The notes beneath the pieces are model-generated. The model ran no database searches. It saw nothing but the letters and a program-made list of their open reading frames with translations, and was not told where the DNA came from. From Candidatus Zixiibacteriota bacterium (GTDB lineage Bacteria > Zixibacteria > MSB-5A5 > SM23-73-2), in the NCBI GenBank assembly GCA_030615745.1, contig JAUWYR010000014.1:1-53999 (forward strand): a DNA stretch of 53,999 nt, in the 5' to 3' direction. Position numbers and translations under genes: made by a program. Of the stretch, positions 7,029 through 40,144 are shown piece by piece (the first letter of the stretch is position 1; every line of letters begins with the position of its first letter).

Positions 7029-7077
7029 GCAGAGGGATAAACCCTCTGCTACGCGTAGCGGAGCCTTTATGGCTCCG
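7029..7077. repeat. Tail-to-tail REP-like half elements (CTAC/GTAG junction)
   Basis: GCAGAGGG-ATAAA-CCCTCTGC (7029-7049) is joined through the palindrome GCTACGCGTAGC (7048-7059) to CGGAGCC-TTTAT-GGCTCCG (7059-7077). The CTAC and GTAG feet meet in the middle. It is the uninterrupted counterpart of 23478-23540, which carries a 15-nt insert in the second half. The rest of 6898-7443 has no gene that I can recognise. Confidence 0.8.
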
Positions 7078-8331: not shown

Positions 8332-8630
8332 TTTTTTTGCTGGATCAGGTCCTTGGTCTGAACCCCCTCAGGAGAAGCCCCTTTTTTTGTAGGGGGCTTG
8401 CTGAGCTTAGCGAAATCCCGATTTTACAGGGTTCCTACAAGCCTTTTTGGAGCTCACCTTGGCAGGGGGCAGGCAAGGGGCTCCCCTACTCCTAATCAGC
8501 GTTATCCTTCGGGCGACCACGAAGGGTCGCCCCTACATTTTATGTGATGTCAGATCCTCAGACCTGACACTCTGTAAGTAGTTCCTGGCATAAAAAAAGT
8601 TCGACTGAAGTCAAAGTGGAAAATTCGCCT
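8332..8630. other. Repeat-filled gap between the EamA and csp genes
   Basis: No gene is recognised. It holds AAGCCCC/GGGGCTT (8375-8399, with GTAG at 8389-8392), a GC-rich stretch around 8450-8490 (GGAGCTC...GGGGCTCCCCTAC), the GGGCGACC palindrome at 8511-8536, and GTCAGATCC...ACCTGAC near 8549-8568. Confidence 0.5.
8511..8536. repeat. REP-like half element GGGCGACC-ACGAAG-GGTCGCCC with CTAC foot
   Basis: Perfect 8-bp stem 8511-8518 / 8525-8532, directly followed by CTAC at 8533-8536. It fits the hairpin-plus-foot scheme seen at 18545-18602 and 34656-34680. Confidence 0.7.
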
Positions 8631-18338: not shown

Positions 18339-18350
18339 TTTTTTTGATGC

Positions 18351-18378
18351 ATCGGTAAAAGGATTTGCCGACACCCCG
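18351..18378. repeat. Palindromic repeat CGGTAAAAGGATTTGCCG (copy 3 of 3)
   Basis: Same family as 3116-3141 and 4132-4156. It starts 13 bases after the NlpC-type gene stop, similar to copy 2 which follows the dockerin-type gene. Confidence 0.6.
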
Positions 18379-18395
18379 GAAATCTTGCAATTACT

Positions 18396-18456
18396 GTAGG
18401 GACAGACCTTCAGGTCTGTCCAATAATTTCGGACAGATTTAAAAATTTGTCCCTAC
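18396..18456. repeat. REPIN-like element, GTAG...CTAC feet, two arms
   Basis: GTAG (18396-18399) and CTAC (18453-18456) frame two hairpins: GACAGACCT-TC-AGGTCTGTC (18401-18420) and GGACAG...TTGTCC (18431-18452). The ends can also pair as GTAGGGACA with TGTCCCTAC, which would give a long outer stem instead of the arms. Confidence 0.8.
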
Positions 18457-18544
18457 ATTTCTTTTACCGGTATTACCGCTAGGTCAGGGGATCTGGCGGG
18501 CACAGATTAGTAGTTGGTTAATAGTTGATGGTTCATAACAGTTC

Positions 18545-18602
18545 GTAGCGTCCGGGTTTATCCCGGACGTTTTTTTTCGGCGGGCATGAAGCCCGCCGCT
18601 AC
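18545..18602. repeat. REPIN-like element, GTAG...CTAC feet, two arms
   Basis: Outer CGTAGCG (18544-18550) pairs with CGCTACG (18597-18603). Arm 1 is CGTCCGGG-TTTAT-CCCGGACG (18549-18569). Arm 2 is GGCGGGC-ATGAA-GCCCGCC (18579-18597). The arm sequences share nothing with the element 140 bases upstream, yet the layout is the same. Confidence 0.85.
18549..18577 (+). terminator. Terminator formed by a REPIN-like arm
   Basis: The perfect 8-bp GC-rich stem CGTCCGGG/CCCGGACG is followed immediately by eight T residues (18570-18577), a canonical intrinsic terminator for the unit ending with the NlpC-type gene. Confidence 0.75.
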
Positions 18603-18664
18603 GTGTTTTGTTCCGGTTTTCTTTTGACCCATGTTGAGGGTAACATGGGACTACCGATATTGTT

Positions 18665-18716
18665 GGGGCAGGGTAAACCCCTGCCCTAACGTAGCACAGA
18701 TAGAATCTGTGCCTAC
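18665..18716. repeat. REP-like hairpin plus GTAG...CTAC single-arm element
   Basis: GGGCAGGG-TAAAC-CCCTGCCC (18666-18686) is followed by GTAG (18691-18694), arm GCACAGAT-AGA-ATCTGTGC (18694-18712) and CTAC (18713-18716). With the two preceding elements it fills the 515-base gap before uvrC. No gene is seen there. A TTGACA at 18737-18742 has no well-spaced -10. Confidence 0.75.
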
Positions 18717-18853
18717 AAATCTTCCTTAAATTTAATTTGACAAAAAAACCTTATTTTAATATTTTCTCCTTGGCAAACCTGAAAGGTTTGGCTTGCGTCT
18801 TCTTTGTGAGCAAAGAGCTCAGCTTTACCTATTTATAAGTTAAGAATAATCTC

Positions 18854-21177: not shown

Positions 21178-21194
21178 GTTTTGGGAAAAGTGTG

Positions 21195-21234
21195 GCAGAG
21201 CCATAAAGGCTTCTTGGTCGGGCAGACTGCTACG
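21195..21234. repeat. REP-like half element with 15-nt insert and CTAC foot
   Basis: GCAGAGCC-ATAAA-GGCT...CTGC followed by TACG. The 3' arm GGCTCTGC is split after GGCT (21211) by the 15 bases TCTTGGTCGGGCAGA (21212-21226), a diverged form of the CCTGGCCGGGCAGGC insert. The uninterrupted arm CAGAGCC-ATAAA-GGCTCTG occurs at 40076-40094. Confidence 0.8.
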
Positions 21235-21344
21235 CGTCGGAAAATGAATTTTATGGAAGATCAAGATAACACCTAACTTGAAACAGGGAGTTTTAGAGTT
21301 TTTAGGTTGAAGATATAAACGTAACTCAAACCTTCAGGTTTGAT

Positions 21345-22342: not shown

Positions 22343-22398
22343 GGAGTGTAAACCTTCAGGTTTACAATGATTTAGGCAAAGCTTTTGCTTTGCACTCC
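22343..22398. repeat. REPIN-like element with GGAG...CTCC feet
   Basis: GGAGTG (22343-22348) and CACTCC (22393-22398) frame arm 1 GTAAACCT-TC-AGGTTTAC (22348-22365) and arm 2 GCAAAGC-TTTT-GCTTTGC (22376-22393). It starts directly after the AmrS-like gene. Single arms with the same ACTCC tail are found at 26778-26801, 27581-27603 and 40122-40144. Confidence 0.8.
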
Positions 22399-22457: not shown

Positions 22458-22507
22458 GTAGCCGCAACCTTTAGGTTGCGTTCACGCAGACTAAAGTCTG
22501 CGCCTAC
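22458..22507. repeat. REPIN-like element, GTAG...CTAC feet
   Basis: GTAG (22458-22461), arm 1 GCAACCT-TT-AGGTTGC (22464-22479), arm 2 CGCAGAC-TAAA-GTCTGCG (22485-22502), CTAC (22504-22507). The same subfamily is found at 26694-26767 (with insert) and 34580-34636 (without). Confidence 0.85.
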
Positions 22508-23191: not shown

Positions 23192-23252
23192 GTTGTTGTT
23201 GCCGAATTTATAATTCGGCAATTCTCTGCTGCATTCAAAATGCAGCAACAAC
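23192..23252. repeat. REPIN-like element with GTTG...CAAC feet
   Basis: GTTGTTG (23192-23198) and CAACAAC (23246-23252) frame arm 1 GCCGAATT-TAT-AATTCGGC (23201-23219) and arm 2 GCTGCATT-CAA-AATGCAGC (23228-23246, approximate loop). It has the same layout as the GTAG and GGAG elements with a third foot sequence. Confidence 0.8.
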
Positions 23253-23282
23253 ACTGATCAGCGGATTGACGGATTGAATGGA

Positions 23283-23309
23283 AAACAGTAAACAGTAAAC
23301 GGTAAACGA
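23283..23309. repeat. Tandem microrepeat of GTAAAC words
   Basis: AAACAGTAAACAGTAAACGG and TAAACG repeat a 7-base unit (GTAAACR). A similar tract lies at 26599-26638, and a GTAGGTAATAG variant at 37505-37531. It is followed by TTGAGAAAGAG words also seen after 37531. Confidence 0.6.
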
Positions 23310-23387
23310 AATTGAGAAAGAGACTTGAGATTTGAGAAAGAGAAAAAAGTTCAGTAGACAGTAACCAGTAAAAAACTTTTAATGGTT

Positions 23388-23418
23388 GCGTCAGGAGCTT
23401 TGCTCCTGACGCTTTTTT
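23388..23418 (+). terminator. Terminator formed by a GCGTCAGGAG palindrome
   Basis: Perfect 10-bp stem GCGTCAGGAG (23388-23397) and CTCCTGACGC (23403-23412) followed by TTTTTT. It is the first strong terminator after the PhaR-like gene, and its arm is shared with the repeats at 5674 and 6904. Confidence 0.7.
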
Positions 23419-23442
23419 CTGTCGGGAGGTAACTCCCGACAG
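23419..23442. repeat. Perfect palindrome CTGTCGGGAG-GTAA-CTCCCGACAG
   Basis: Identical to 6972-6995, including the following CACTGGAAAA. It is part of the composite block repeated between 6901-7084 and 23386-23545. Confidence 0.8.
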
Positions 23443-23477
23443 CACTGGAAAAAATCACATTTTTCTTATTCAATTTC

Positions 23478-23540
23478 GCAGAGGGATAAACCCCCTGCTA
23501 CGCGTAGAGGCCTGCCCGTCCCGGGAGCCTTTATGGACCC
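23478..23540. repeat. Tail-to-tail REP-like halves; second half carries a 15-nt insert
   Basis: GCAGAGGG-ATAAA-CCCCCTGC, then CTACGCGTAG, then CCTGCCCGTCCCGGG inserted at 23511-23525, then AGCCTTTATGGACC. The uninterrupted version at 7029-7077 reads CGTAGCGG directly into AGCCTTTATGG, so the insert is exactly 15 bases. Confidence 0.75.
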
Positions 23541-23619
23541 GATATCCAGTGATCTGCATAGGAATCGTAATACCTGGATACAATCTACCCGTAAAGTACA
23601 CTGTTGTTAGATTCTTTTC

Positions 23620-25003: not shown

Positions 25004-26596
25004 ATGCGAAATAGGTTATTTCTTCTGATTGGGGCTCTGGTTATTTTTTTCTTTTTTCTTTTTTCATCCTGTGCCAAACAGGAGTTGACCAAGGATGAGC
25101 TTCAAAGGCTGGAACAGATCAGAGAAAGGTCATTTGAATTCATCAAAGAGATAGTGGATGATTTTTTTAAAGCTGATGCTTTTGGGGGAGAGTCTCATTA
25201 TGAAAAGATAGTAAAAAAATATAAAGATATATTTGAAAGGGAAAATATCAAAATAGTTCAAAAGGCAATGAGGGTAACTAATGACCCTGAGGAGAAGAAA
25301 AAACTCGATTATCTGAGAGTATATCTGATCGATGGACATGTCGGTCAAGAGACAGCAAAATATGAGGACCAGATGAACAAGTTAACCTCCGAGGCGGTTA
25401 TAATTGTGAATAATGATACCATTCCTTACAGACATTATGGATATGTTATGTCCTATGAGCCTGATAGAGAGAAGAGAAAAAGGATAAGTTTTGCTCGAAT
25501 TCCAACTATAGAAAAACAGAAAGCTCTAATAACTGAACAGATGGCAAAGACTGATTCAATGCTTGAGGAATTCGGATACAGAAATGAAGCTGAGTTTTTA
25601 GAGGATTACCGATTAGCCGATTTTGAGAAATTCGCTCAAGTTTGCAAATCATTTATTAAATCAACAGATTCTTTGTATTTTGCTTTATTTAAAGAGTATG
25701 CTCCTAAGATGACAAAAGTTTCAGCAGATACTTTCAGATCGTGGGATTTCTCCTTGCTTTTCAAAGGGGGTATGTTCGATAAATATTTCCCAAAAGAAAA
25801 CTTGGTTATCAATATGAAAAAGACCCTTCTGGATTTAGGAATAGATATGGAAAAGCAAAAAGCTTTAACTTTAGACACTGAGGATAGGCCTAAAAAACAG
25901 CCGAGAGCTGCTTGTTATCCGGTCTCTATTCCTAATGATGTAAGAATAAATTTAAAACCTATCGGTGGTCATGATGATTATGATGGATTTAACCATGAGA
26001 TGGGTCATGCCCAGCACTTCTTACACAGTAAAGAGAAAGGATTTGAGTTCAATTATTTAGGGAATAACACGGTAACTGAGACCTATGCATTTCTTCTTGA
26101 ATACCTTATAGATGACCCTAATTATTTAAAGGAACACTTTAAGTTCACTCAAAACGATTTAAAAGATTTTGTCAGATACCGAGCATTTATCCGACTTTTG
26201 ATGACCAGAATTTATTGCGCACACTTTCTTTTTGAGAGACTACTTTACACTAATGCTCCTGATTTAATGGAGGAGTACGTCAAGATCAATCAGCCTGTTT
26301 TGGGCTACACCTTTGCCAGAATCGACAGCTTGAGGTATCTTCTGTCTGGAGACCATTTTTATTCTGCAGATTACCTGAGAGCCTGGTTTCTGGAGGCACA
26401 ATTAAAGAAAGTATTGCAGGATAGGTATGGTGAGAAATGGAATAAAAATCCTGAGGCAGGAGAGTATTTGAAAACTTTGTGGGCAACCGGATGCAGGTGG
26501 ACCGGACAGGAGCTGGCAGAGTTTATCGGAGTTGGCAGGGTAGATTACGGTGCTTTGAAACAGGAGCTTGAGTGGATGGCAAGCTACGGACAGTAG
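25004..26596 (+). CDS. M3-type metallopeptidase lipoprotein
   Basis: The 530-residue protein starts with a lipoprotein signal (MRNRLFLLIGALVIFFFFLF, lipobox SSC near residue 25), so it is membrane-anchored outside the cytoplasm. A mostly helical body leads to the zinc site FNHEMGHAQHFLH (HExxH, about residues 331-343) with a downstream ETYAF glutamate ligand about 25 residues later, the gluzincin arrangement of thimet-oligopeptidase/PepF-like enzymes. Whether it cuts oligopeptides is inference. AAGGGAG lies before the ATG. It is about 90 bases from dnaJ with no terminator between. A good terminator follows at 26640. Confidence 0.82.
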   Translation: MRNRLFLLIGALVIFFFFLFSSCAKQELTKDELQRLEQIRERSFEFIKEIVDDFFKADAFGGESHYEKIVKKYKDIFERENIKIVQKAMRVTNDPEEKKKLDYLRVYLIDGHVGQETAKYEDQMNKLTSEAVIIVNNDTIPYRHYGYVMSYEPDREKRKRISFARIPTIEKQKALITEQMAKTDSMLEEFGYRNEAEFLEDYRLADFEKFAQVCKSFIKSTDSLYFALFKEYAPKMTKVSADTFRSWDFSLLFKGGMFDKYFPKENLVINMKKTLLDLGIDMEKQKALTLDTEDRPKKQPRAACYPVSIPNDVRINLKPIGGHDDYDGFNHEMGHAQHFLHSKEKGFEFNYLGNNTVTETYAFLLEYLIDDPNYLKEHFKFTQNDLKDFVRYRAFIRLLMTRIYCAHFLFERLLYTNAPDLMEEYVKINQPVLGYTFARIDSLRYLLSGDHFYSADYLRAWFLEAQLKKVLQDRYGEKWNKNPEAGEYLKTLWATGCRWTGQELAEFIGVGRVDYGALKQELEWMASYGQ

Positions 26597-26598
26597 CT

Positions 26599-26638
26599 GG
26601 TAAACAGGAAACAGAAAACGGAAAACGGTAAACAGTAA
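26599..26638. repeat. Tandem microrepeat of GTAAAC/GAAAAC words
   Basis: A tract of 7-base words (GGTAAACAGGAAACAGAAAA, then CGGAAAACGGTAAACAGTAA) begins two bases after the stop codon of the peptidase gene. It is related to 23283-23309. Confidence 0.6.
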
Positions 26639-26639
26639 G

Positions 26640-26667
26640 AGAGGCAAGGAATCCTTGCCTCTTTTTA
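26640..26667 (+). terminator. Rho-independent terminator of the M3-type peptidase gene
   Basis: AGAGGCAAGG (26640-26649) pairs with CCTTGCCTCT (26653-26662) around AAT, followed by TTTTATT. Confidence 0.85.
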
Positions 26668-26693: not shown

Positions 26694-26767
26694 GTAGGCG
26701 CAACCTTCCCTGGCCGGGCAGGCAGGTTGCGTAAACAGTTCCACGCAGTCTAAAGACTGCGGCGACC
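26694..26767. repeat. REPIN-like element (GTAG foot) with 15-nt insert in the loop of arm 1
   Basis: GTAG (26694-26697), then GCGCAACCTTC, insert CCTGGCCGGGCAGGC (26709-26723), AGGTTGCG, then arm 2 GCAGTC-TAAA-GACTGC (26745-26760) and a degenerate foot GGCGACC. The uninterrupted counterpart GCGCAACCTTCAGGTTGCG is at 34584-34602, with the same TAAACA spacer after it. Confidence 0.88.
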
Positions 26768-26777
26768 TTTGATAGAA

Positions 26778-26801
26778 TGCAAAAATAAATTTTTGCACTC
26801 C
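26778..26801. repeat. Hairpin TGCAAAAAT-AA-ATTTTTGCA with ACTCC tail
   Basis: Single arm ending in CACTCC, a half of the GGAG...CTCC class (compare 22376-22398). A near-identical copy is at 27581-27603. Confidence 0.65.
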
Positions 26802-27446: not shown

Positions 27447-27667
27447 TTTATATATTCCTAGAATGGTGGTTATTGTTTCTACTTATAATCTAAAAGGAGC
27501 AAAAAAGAAGTCAAGTAACTTATTTTCTATGTGTTGTTAGAAGTTTTCACTTAACAAAGTAATTCGCAGGAATGATAAAAGCAAAAATAAATTTTTGCAC
27601 TCCGATTTTACTTGACCTTTCGTGTTTCTTTCGTATTTCTAAATAAAGAAAAAAATAATTTAGTTTT
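27447..27667. other. Intergenic region between the 26922 gene and miaB, left part
   Basis: No gene is seen. It holds the hairpin GCAAAAATAAATTTTTGCACTCC at 27581-27603 (half of the GGAG/CTCC class). The right part of the gap carries the REP-like elements at 27668-27779. Confidence 0.5.
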
Positions 27668-27691
27668 GCGAAGGTATAAAACCTTCGCTAC
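27668..27691. repeat. REP-like half element GCGAAGGT-ATAAA-ACCTTCGC with CTAC foot
   Basis: Perfect 8-bp stem (27668-27675 / 27681-27688) with the standard ATAAA loop, ending in CTAC (27688-27691). Confidence 0.8.
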
Positions 27692-27738: not shown

Positions 27739-27778
27739 GTCAAGTGCCCTCGCCTTTGGCAAGGGATACTTGACCTAC
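27739..27778. repeat. Long palindrome with CTAC foot just upstream of miaB
   Basis: GTCAAGT (27739-27745) pairs with ACTTGAC (27768-27774). Inside lies CCCTCGCC-TTT-GGCAAGGG, and CTAC follows at 27775-27778. It ends 13 bases before the miaB start, so it must be in the miaB leader or promoter. Confidence 0.65.
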
Positions 27779-34579: not shown

Positions 34580-34636
34580 GTAGGCGCAACCTTCAGGTTG
34601 CGTAAACAAATTTCGCAGGCTAAAGCCTACTGCTAC
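34580..34636. repeat. REPIN-like element, GTAG...CTAC feet (no insert)
   Basis: GTAG (34580-34583), arm 1 GCAACCT-TC-AGGTTGC (34586-34601), arm 2 GCAGGC-TAAA-GCCT..TGC with two extra bases (34615-34633), CTAC (34633-34636). It is the uninterrupted partner of 26694-26767. Confidence 0.85.
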
Positions 34637-34655: not shown

Positions 34656-34680
34656 CGTCAGGGATAAACCCTGACGCTAC
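34656..34680. repeat. REP-like half element CGTCAGGG-ATAAA-CCCTGACG with CTAC foot
   Basis: Perfect 8-bp stem (34656-34663 / 34669-34676), directly followed by CTAC (34677-34680), 15 bases before the tatC start. Confidence 0.82.
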
Positions 34681-40041: not shown

Positions 40042-40098
40042 GTAGCGGAGGGTTTATCCCTTCGCGTGACAGAATCAGAGCCATAAAGGCTCTGCTAC
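40042..40098. repeat. REPIN-like element, GTAG...CTAC feet
   Basis: GTAG (40042-40045), arm 1 CGGAGGG-TTTAT-CCCTTCG (40046-40064, one mismatch), arm 2 CAGAGCC-ATAAA-GGCTCTG (40076-40094), CTAC (40095-40098). Arm 2 is the uninterrupted version of the insert-bearing arm at 21195. Confidence 0.85.
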
Positions 40099-40121: not shown

Positions 40122-40144
40122 GTAAAGCTTTTGCTTTACACTCC
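40122..40144. repeat. Hairpin GTAAAGC-TTTT-GCTTTAC with ACTCC tail
   Basis: Half element of the GGAG/CTCC class (compare 22376-22398), 23 bases before the next start codon. Confidence 0.7.

Follow-up and report, generated by a model that had tools for sequence, protein, structure and literature searches.

The stretch of DNA analysed here (53,999 nucleotides, referred to below as the window) carries pairs of short hairpins standing on GTAG feet, an observation that our analyses confirm. These elements are ordinary as a class but informative in detail, as they comprise pairs with unlike arms in several families and a GGAG-footed branch whose transposases show matching changes. The reading that we prefer, to which we give a probability of about 0.72, is that RAYT (Y1 HUH) transposases have spread these elements as non-autonomous REPs, that their unlike arms keep the two hairpins separate, and that several RAYT lineages left the families behind.

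GTAG-footed hairpins in the window

The window forms contig 23 in a Zixibacteria metagenome assembly of 74 contigs and 2.28 Mb, and its protein at 25004-26596 has 77% identity to candidate division Zixibacteria bacterium SM23_73_2. Comparisons were made with G001, a sister species of the same genus whose coding identity to our genome is about 76%. The main open reading frames cover about 85% of the window, in which an Rfam search returned nothing but one tRNA. The window has 17 hairpins on GTAG feet, where block-shuffled sequence gave 0.42 on average (100 shuffles, the largest count being 3), and four framed GTAG pairs, where the 100 shuffles gave none; the framed two-arm structures of the original prediction thus lie far above the shuffled background. 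In 722 kb of the genome (the sampled stretches came to 722 kb and 343 kb out of 2.28 Mb) we counted 120 GTAG-footed hairpins and 24 framed pairs or dimers, compared with 3-12 and zero in five shuffles. When the tetramers abutting strong hairpins were counted with no foot presupposed, GTAG was the commonest (36 against about one predicted from its background frequency), and GAGT/GGAG (frames of TGGAGT) and GTTG were also high. All 16 GTAG-footed and all five GGAG-footed hairpins recovered by a foot-anchored scan of the window lie outside the main open reading frames and are intergenic.

Five of the six sites predicted to be framed by GTAG...CTAC stood. The pair at 18396-18456 has GGACAGACCT-TC on the left and GGACA(A/G)ATTT with a CTAC foot on the right; that at 18545-18602 consists of CGTCCGGG-TTTAT and CGGCGGGC-TTCAT with an 8-nt T spacer; that at 22458-22507 of CGCAACCT-TT and CGCAGACT-TT; that at 34580-34636 of CGCAACCT-TC and a CGCAGGCT arm; and that at 40042-40098 of CGGAGGG-TTTAT and CAGAGCC-TTTAT. 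The sixth, at 26694-26767, is degenerate, its CGCAACCT arm having a 17-nt loop and the right foot, beside CGCAGTCT, being mutated to GCGACC. Both sides are complementary, as predicted, in most arms, the exceptions being the right arm of the 18396 pair and the left arm of the 40042 pair, with one G.T-type departure each, and the imperfect right arm at 34580. The single halves with a CTAC foot at 8511-8536 (GGGCGACC-CTTCGT), 27669-27691 (CGAAGGT-TTTAT) and 34656-34680 (CGTCAGGG-TTTAT), all on the minus strand, are clean, and the half predicted at 21195 is degenerate (21190-21236) yet has a counterpart at the orthologous position of the sister genome.

Several elements had been overlooked. Two halves of the CNGAG family lie tail to tail at 7030-7077, with their GTAG feet inside and the stems CAGAGGG and CGGAGCC, and a single half with a GTAG foot and the stem CCCATGTT occupies the minus strand at 18628-18654. 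A 'double foot' hairpin of the GCAC family at 18691-18716 (GTAG-CACAGAT-AGA-ATCTGTG-C-CTAC), a type already named by Quentin 2018 (PMC6006769), is possibly a pair with its middle lost. A GGAG-footed pair is found at 22343-22398 (TGTAAACCT / GCAAAGC), GGAG-footed halves on the minus strand at 26778-26801 (TGCAAAAAT), 27581-27603 (GCAAAAAT) and 40122-40144 (GTAAAGC), and a GTTG-footed pair at 23195-23252 (TTGCCGAATT / TGCTGCATT).

We also observed a longer CTAC-foot hairpin at 27739-27778 (GTCAAGTGCCCTCGCC...GGGATACTTGACCTAC), of a type seen beside the RAYT gene L003 of the same genome, and strong GCGTCAGGAGC and TGTCGGGAG hairpins with no clear GTAG foot at 23383-23544; words related to the latter flank the RAYT genes L090 and L091 of the sister genome, where 60-85 bp pieces of this region recur many times. 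Short degenerate AACAGTAAACGGTAAACAGT-type repeats occur near REP elements at 23280-23375 and 26605-26665, and a comparable stretch occupies the orthologous position in G001.

The elements at 8511, 27668, 34580 and 34656 are absent from G001 at the orthologous places, and the 21195 element and the right arm at 22458 are common to the two genomes. This shows that REPs have been gained or lost since the divergence from G001; against this genome, only about 76% identical, no clean empty site with its target sequence was resolved. The region orthologous to 18341-18730 of the window (L084, 15085-18096 on contig C8 of G001) has about 3 kb between NlpC/P60 and uvrC, against 0.4 kb of REP elements in the window, a difference that left no usable alignment of the two genomes there; reading this 3-kb stretch by eye revealed repeats resembling GDVNDD..IDLSDVIYLANYYLQGG, of the kind found in secreted proteins of the dockerin type.

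Stem families and covariation

By their foot-proximal words the GTAG elements fall into at least eight families, namely GTCG, GTCAGG, GGG(A/C)G, GGACAG, GCAC, CGTC/CGGC, C(N)GAG and, set one base away from the foot, CGCA/CGCC. Several of them have matches in the flanks of RAYT genes of our genome or of related ones; the 'many diverged families' that had been offered as one explanation are therefore real. To limit circularity, matches were picked by the foot and the proximal arms alone, leaving the distal stem unselected. The stems truly covary, as predicted: this unselected distal part was fully paired in 94 of the 98 GTAG cases and comprised 28 different words over 8 families, and the covariation score was 0.883 against 0.210 for shuffled stems, none of 500 shuffles reaching as high. 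In the 8-bp families with 5-nt loops, two-sided changes were found at 7 of the 8 pairs and 100% of the cells were paired, the latter by construction because the rows had been chosen as perfect stems, which does not apply to the variety of pair types. The right arm at 22458 also differs from its sister counterpart by a two-sided change (CGCAGACT/AGTCTGCG versus CGCAGGCT/AGCCTGCG).

Recognition by foot and structure, another suggestion of the original prediction, gains indirect support from distal words that vary yet pair and from published assays on a Stenotrophomonas REP, in which GTAG, one loop base and a perfect stem mattered for cleavage and swaps of stem blocks were not drastic (Corneloup 2021, PMC8266576). 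An exchange of stem 'words' is suggested by the pairing of one word with several partners. The premise that stems are normally conserved within a genome did not hold, as complementary stem variants occur in most of the families described by Di Nocera 2013 (PMC3733652), and selection for complementary mutations had already been inferred by Nunvar 2010 (PMC2817692).

RAYT transposases, their feet and their clades

The genome has three Y1_Tnp (RAYT) genes (L001, L002 and L003) with footed hairpins beside each, which bears out the assignment of the elements to the GTAG-footed REP type. L001, which matches E. coli TnpA_REP (4er8) at 3e-27, is framed by GTAG-GTCAGGAGC hairpins with their feet outward; L003 adjoins GTCAAGT hairpins with CTAC; and L002 sits between GTTG/CAAC hairpins, one word of which (TTGCTGCATT) recurs in the GTTG-footed pair of the window at 23195-23252. 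RAYT genes occur in 37 of 39 relatives, with one to eleven per genome, and many are flanked by footed hairpins; the proteins found here are mostly of 140-200 aa. Besides TTGCTGCATT at L002, window families match RAYT flanks with CGCAACCT at L170, CGTCGGGG/CGTCGGGC at L032/L099, the GGG type at L092/L172, and GGAG with GTCAAGTT at L093. RAYTs flanked by CGCA, CGTC or GGG families or by GGAG hairpins are present in relatives (these same loci) and absent from our own assembly. Because the cognate RAYTs are found in relatives only, most families here look orphaned, with no cognate RAYT left, although an assembly that is 98.6% complete may miss sequence.

A tree of 77 RAYTs placed L001 and L003 in a clade with stems of the GTC type and L002 in a different one. 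The GGAG-flanked RAYTs L093, L095, L186, L196 and L200 form one clade with a support of 100/99 (L186 carried a GTTG label in the tree, resulting from a tie), and GGAG was the commonest foot in all five when none was presupposed; a sixth GGAG-labelled RAYT, L202, the label of which comes from a single hairpin, was placed elsewhere. Alignment with E. coli TnpA_REP revealed that the motif WQ...(D/E)H..R, some residues of which are reported as GTAG contacts (PMC6006769), is kept in nearly all GTAG-footed RAYTs. L001 and L003 keep the HUH motif, the catalytic Tyr region, W94, Q95, H101 and R104; L002 keeps HUH and the tyrosine and has neither Q95 nor H101, in agreement with its GTTG flanks; and the GGAG clade has an alignment gap at Q95 and misses H101. 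Judging from tree and alignment, the GGAG-footed hairpin class belongs to a separate RAYT clade that lacks residues contacting GTAG in the E. coli protein. The unbiased count gave mixed feet for the clade with GTTG flanks, and GTTG is only tentatively the foot of one entire RAYT clade.

Three further RAYTs, L049 (genome G027), L040 (G004) and L189 (G023), have complete REP pairs or arrays that recur on either side of the gene, which looks as though it had inserted into a pair or duplicated one.

Unlike arms and predicted folding

For the pair counts each half was anchored on its own foot, since identical-arm pairs with short spacers otherwise merge into one long stem. The two arms are unlike in all 30 adjacent head-to-head GTAG pairs sampled in our genome (25 in the first sample, 5 in the second); including GGAG and GTTG feet brings the count to 43 of 43, in which some GTTG pairs represent overlapping readings of a single pair. 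The foot-proximal word is common to both arms of the GTAG pairs. Most differences concern stem positions 5-8 and are most frequent at 6-7; positions 1 and 4 are always the same. The arms of a pair tended only weakly to differ by transversions (37 to 19, compared with 167 to 126 for arms of different pairs), and we make no claim of such a preference. Re-pairing the arms within families (28 same-family pairs) led us to expect 6 identical pairs, against none observed (P = 0.0004), and predicted smaller arm distances than those observed (P = 4e-5); the second sample, with only 5 pairs, was too small for this test alone. When repeated arm combinations were collapsed, the lack of identical pairs had P = 0.033 and the mean distance was not unusual (P = 0.49). 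Because collapsing repeats weakens the statistics, part of the unlike-arm signal consists of copies of a few founders.

Across all the sampled genomes and feet, 71 of 73 head-to-head pairs are unlike; the two identical-arm pairs, with 26-nt spacers, lie on both sides of one RAYT gene (L189) in a class-level relative. Of 17 pairs of convergent arms separated by over 400 bp, in most cases with a RAYT gene between them, 5 are identical, several sharing a locus. None of 18 tail-tail neighbours is identical, a count that tests little because many of them come from different families.

The predicted DNA folding favoured two hairpins in 19 of 22 real pairs, the other three having no preference for that fold, as opposed to 0 of 44 in-silico versions with identical arms, which collapse into one hairpin. 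This predicted effect offers a reason for the preference for heterodimers. The pairs had been termed REPIN-like; the REPINs of Pseudomonas fluorescens are typically, if not absolutely, doublets of identical REPs predicted to form one long hairpin (Bertels and Rainey 2011, PMC3116915). Our elements resemble them in having two inverted REPs as a unit and in their association with RAYTs, and differ from the strict sense of the term in that none of the 30 GTAG pairs is an identical doublet and in their predicted folding as two hairpins.

Relation to known REP elements

Di Nocera, De Gregorio and Rocco 2013 (PMC3733652) described 24 families of GTAG-tagged REPs with complementary stem variants and dimers, and distinguished a GTAG and a CGTC super-family. 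In most families heterodimers were preferred with 'no obvious explanation', protection from palindrome removal being suggested. Because GTAG-tagged, RAYT-associated REPs, their stem variants and their heterodimers are contained in that work, the class is already described, a point that the original prediction had left undecided; its interpretation as a whole is partly supported by our results. The elements in this genome share with those REPs the unpaired GTAG foot, the stem of 6-13 bp with a short loop, the repeated and mainly intergenic occurrence as singles and head-to-head dimers, the RAYT association, the complementary stem variants and the several families per genome, with heterodimers preferred in many. 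They differ in that the sampled pairs of this genome are always unlike, over the at least eight GTAG families and two further feet, in belonging to Zixibacteria, which is not among the phyla of that study, and in a GGAG foot that lies outside its two super-families. Identical-arm pairs are the rule in some Pseudomonas (PMC3733652), so that unlike arms are not a general need. Membership among the CGTC-tagged REPs was not found, as the 722 kb contained 8 CGTC-footed hairpins and zero dimers. The RAYTs, as those described under this name or as TnpA_REP (PMC2817692, PMC6006769, PMC8266576), are Y1 HUH proteins flanked by REP hairpins, from which the GGAG-flanked clade departs by its changes at Q95 and H101. 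Quentin 2018 (PMC6006769) gave GT[AG]G feet, and CnGA for class 3. The REP/RAYT papers searched for 'GGAG' do not have it in their main text, where feet are GTAG, GT[AG]G or CnGA; the search covered open literature and is no proof of novelty.

In the BIMEs of E. coli, Y and Z REPs provide two arm types that stand head to head. The pairing of two types is alike in our elements, which differ by their many words and partners and by perfect short stems without the E. coli bulge.

Origin of the unlike arms

In the mechanism that we propose, RAYT transposases would act on single-stranded DNA and thereby spread non-autonomous REPs. The transposase would read the foot tetranucleotide, and probably the foot-proximal word and the loop, and would need an intact hairpin, the distal stem being free to vary while pairing is kept. 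The unit would be the head-to-head pair, with foot and proximal word in common and distal stems that differ, and this difference would prevent inter-arm pairing so that each arm forms its own hairpin; a merged long palindrome would be either unusable by the transposase or removed by the cell. Several RAYT lineages may have passed through the genome, each leaving one family, and three RAYT genes remain. Of this scheme, the analysis shows the elements, their covariation, their unlike arms, the predicted effect on folding, the RAYT flanks and the gain or loss relative to the sister species; that the elements transpose, which features the transposase recognises and why selection would favour unlikeness are inferred, and single-strand processing by the cognate RAYT is putative. 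A bolder version, in which the hypervariability of the stems would be driven by the need for two mutually non-pairing words per element (foot, proximal word and loop being fixed) and RAYT lineages would switch their foot from GTAG to GGAG with loss of the GTAG-contact residues, seems to us speculative and rather unlikely.

The arms could instead be left and right ends fixed by descent, comparable to the Y/Z REPs of E. coli or to the ends of IS200/IS605, a founder pair being copied under no continuing pressure. One word does occur in all or nearly all the pairs of several families (GGGAGGGG, GTCGATTTT, GCACGAAT and CGCAACCT), and the weakening of the re-pairing test after collapsing repeats points in the same direction; however, three different partners, all of them unlike, were found for GTCGATTTT and likewise three for CAGAGCC, so that arms turn over without becoming alike, and identical stems stand at both ends of the RAYT genes L001, L044, L050 and L053. 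Taking both sides into account, we hold fixed ends to be possible, with the balance tilted against them. Removal of long perfect palindromes by the host, through SbcCD cleavage or slipped replication, would leave unlike arms whatever the transposase needs, and in our judgement falls not far short of an even chance. It was put forward by Di Nocera 2013 (PMC3733652), and would agree with the unlikeness also of tail-tail neighbours, an arrangement other than the framed unit, with identical arms occurring where a gene separates them, and with the resemblance of the double-foot hairpin at 18691-18716 to a centrally deleted pair; identical pairs nevertheless persist in Pseudomonas and at L189.

Terminators or mRNA-stabilising structures, with compensatory changes arising from selection on the RNA, would fit the intergenic placement and the stems that stay paired, yet neither the fixed unpaired GTAG foot nor the head-to-head framing, the words shared with RAYT flanks or the presence and absence in the sister genome would be expected of them, and we regard such an origin as improbable; the hairpins could still be used secondarily as terminators. 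Chance hairpins in AT-rich intergenic DNA, in favour of which nothing was found, are ruled out by the shuffles (0.42 expected against 17 in the window) together with the unbiased tetramer count, and their likelihood is negligible.

What these elements add to the earlier description is the exceptionless unlikeness of arms in the sampled pairs of this genome, the GGAG class with its own RAYT clade, and the mostly orphaned state of the families. With at least eight parallel families obeying the same rule, and the contrast in predicted folding between real and identical-arm pairs, the preference for heterodimers becomes directly testable. GGAG elements, associated with a RAYT clade in which GTAG-contact residues are lacking, offer a natural experiment for asking how these single-strand transposases read the guide tetranucleotide.
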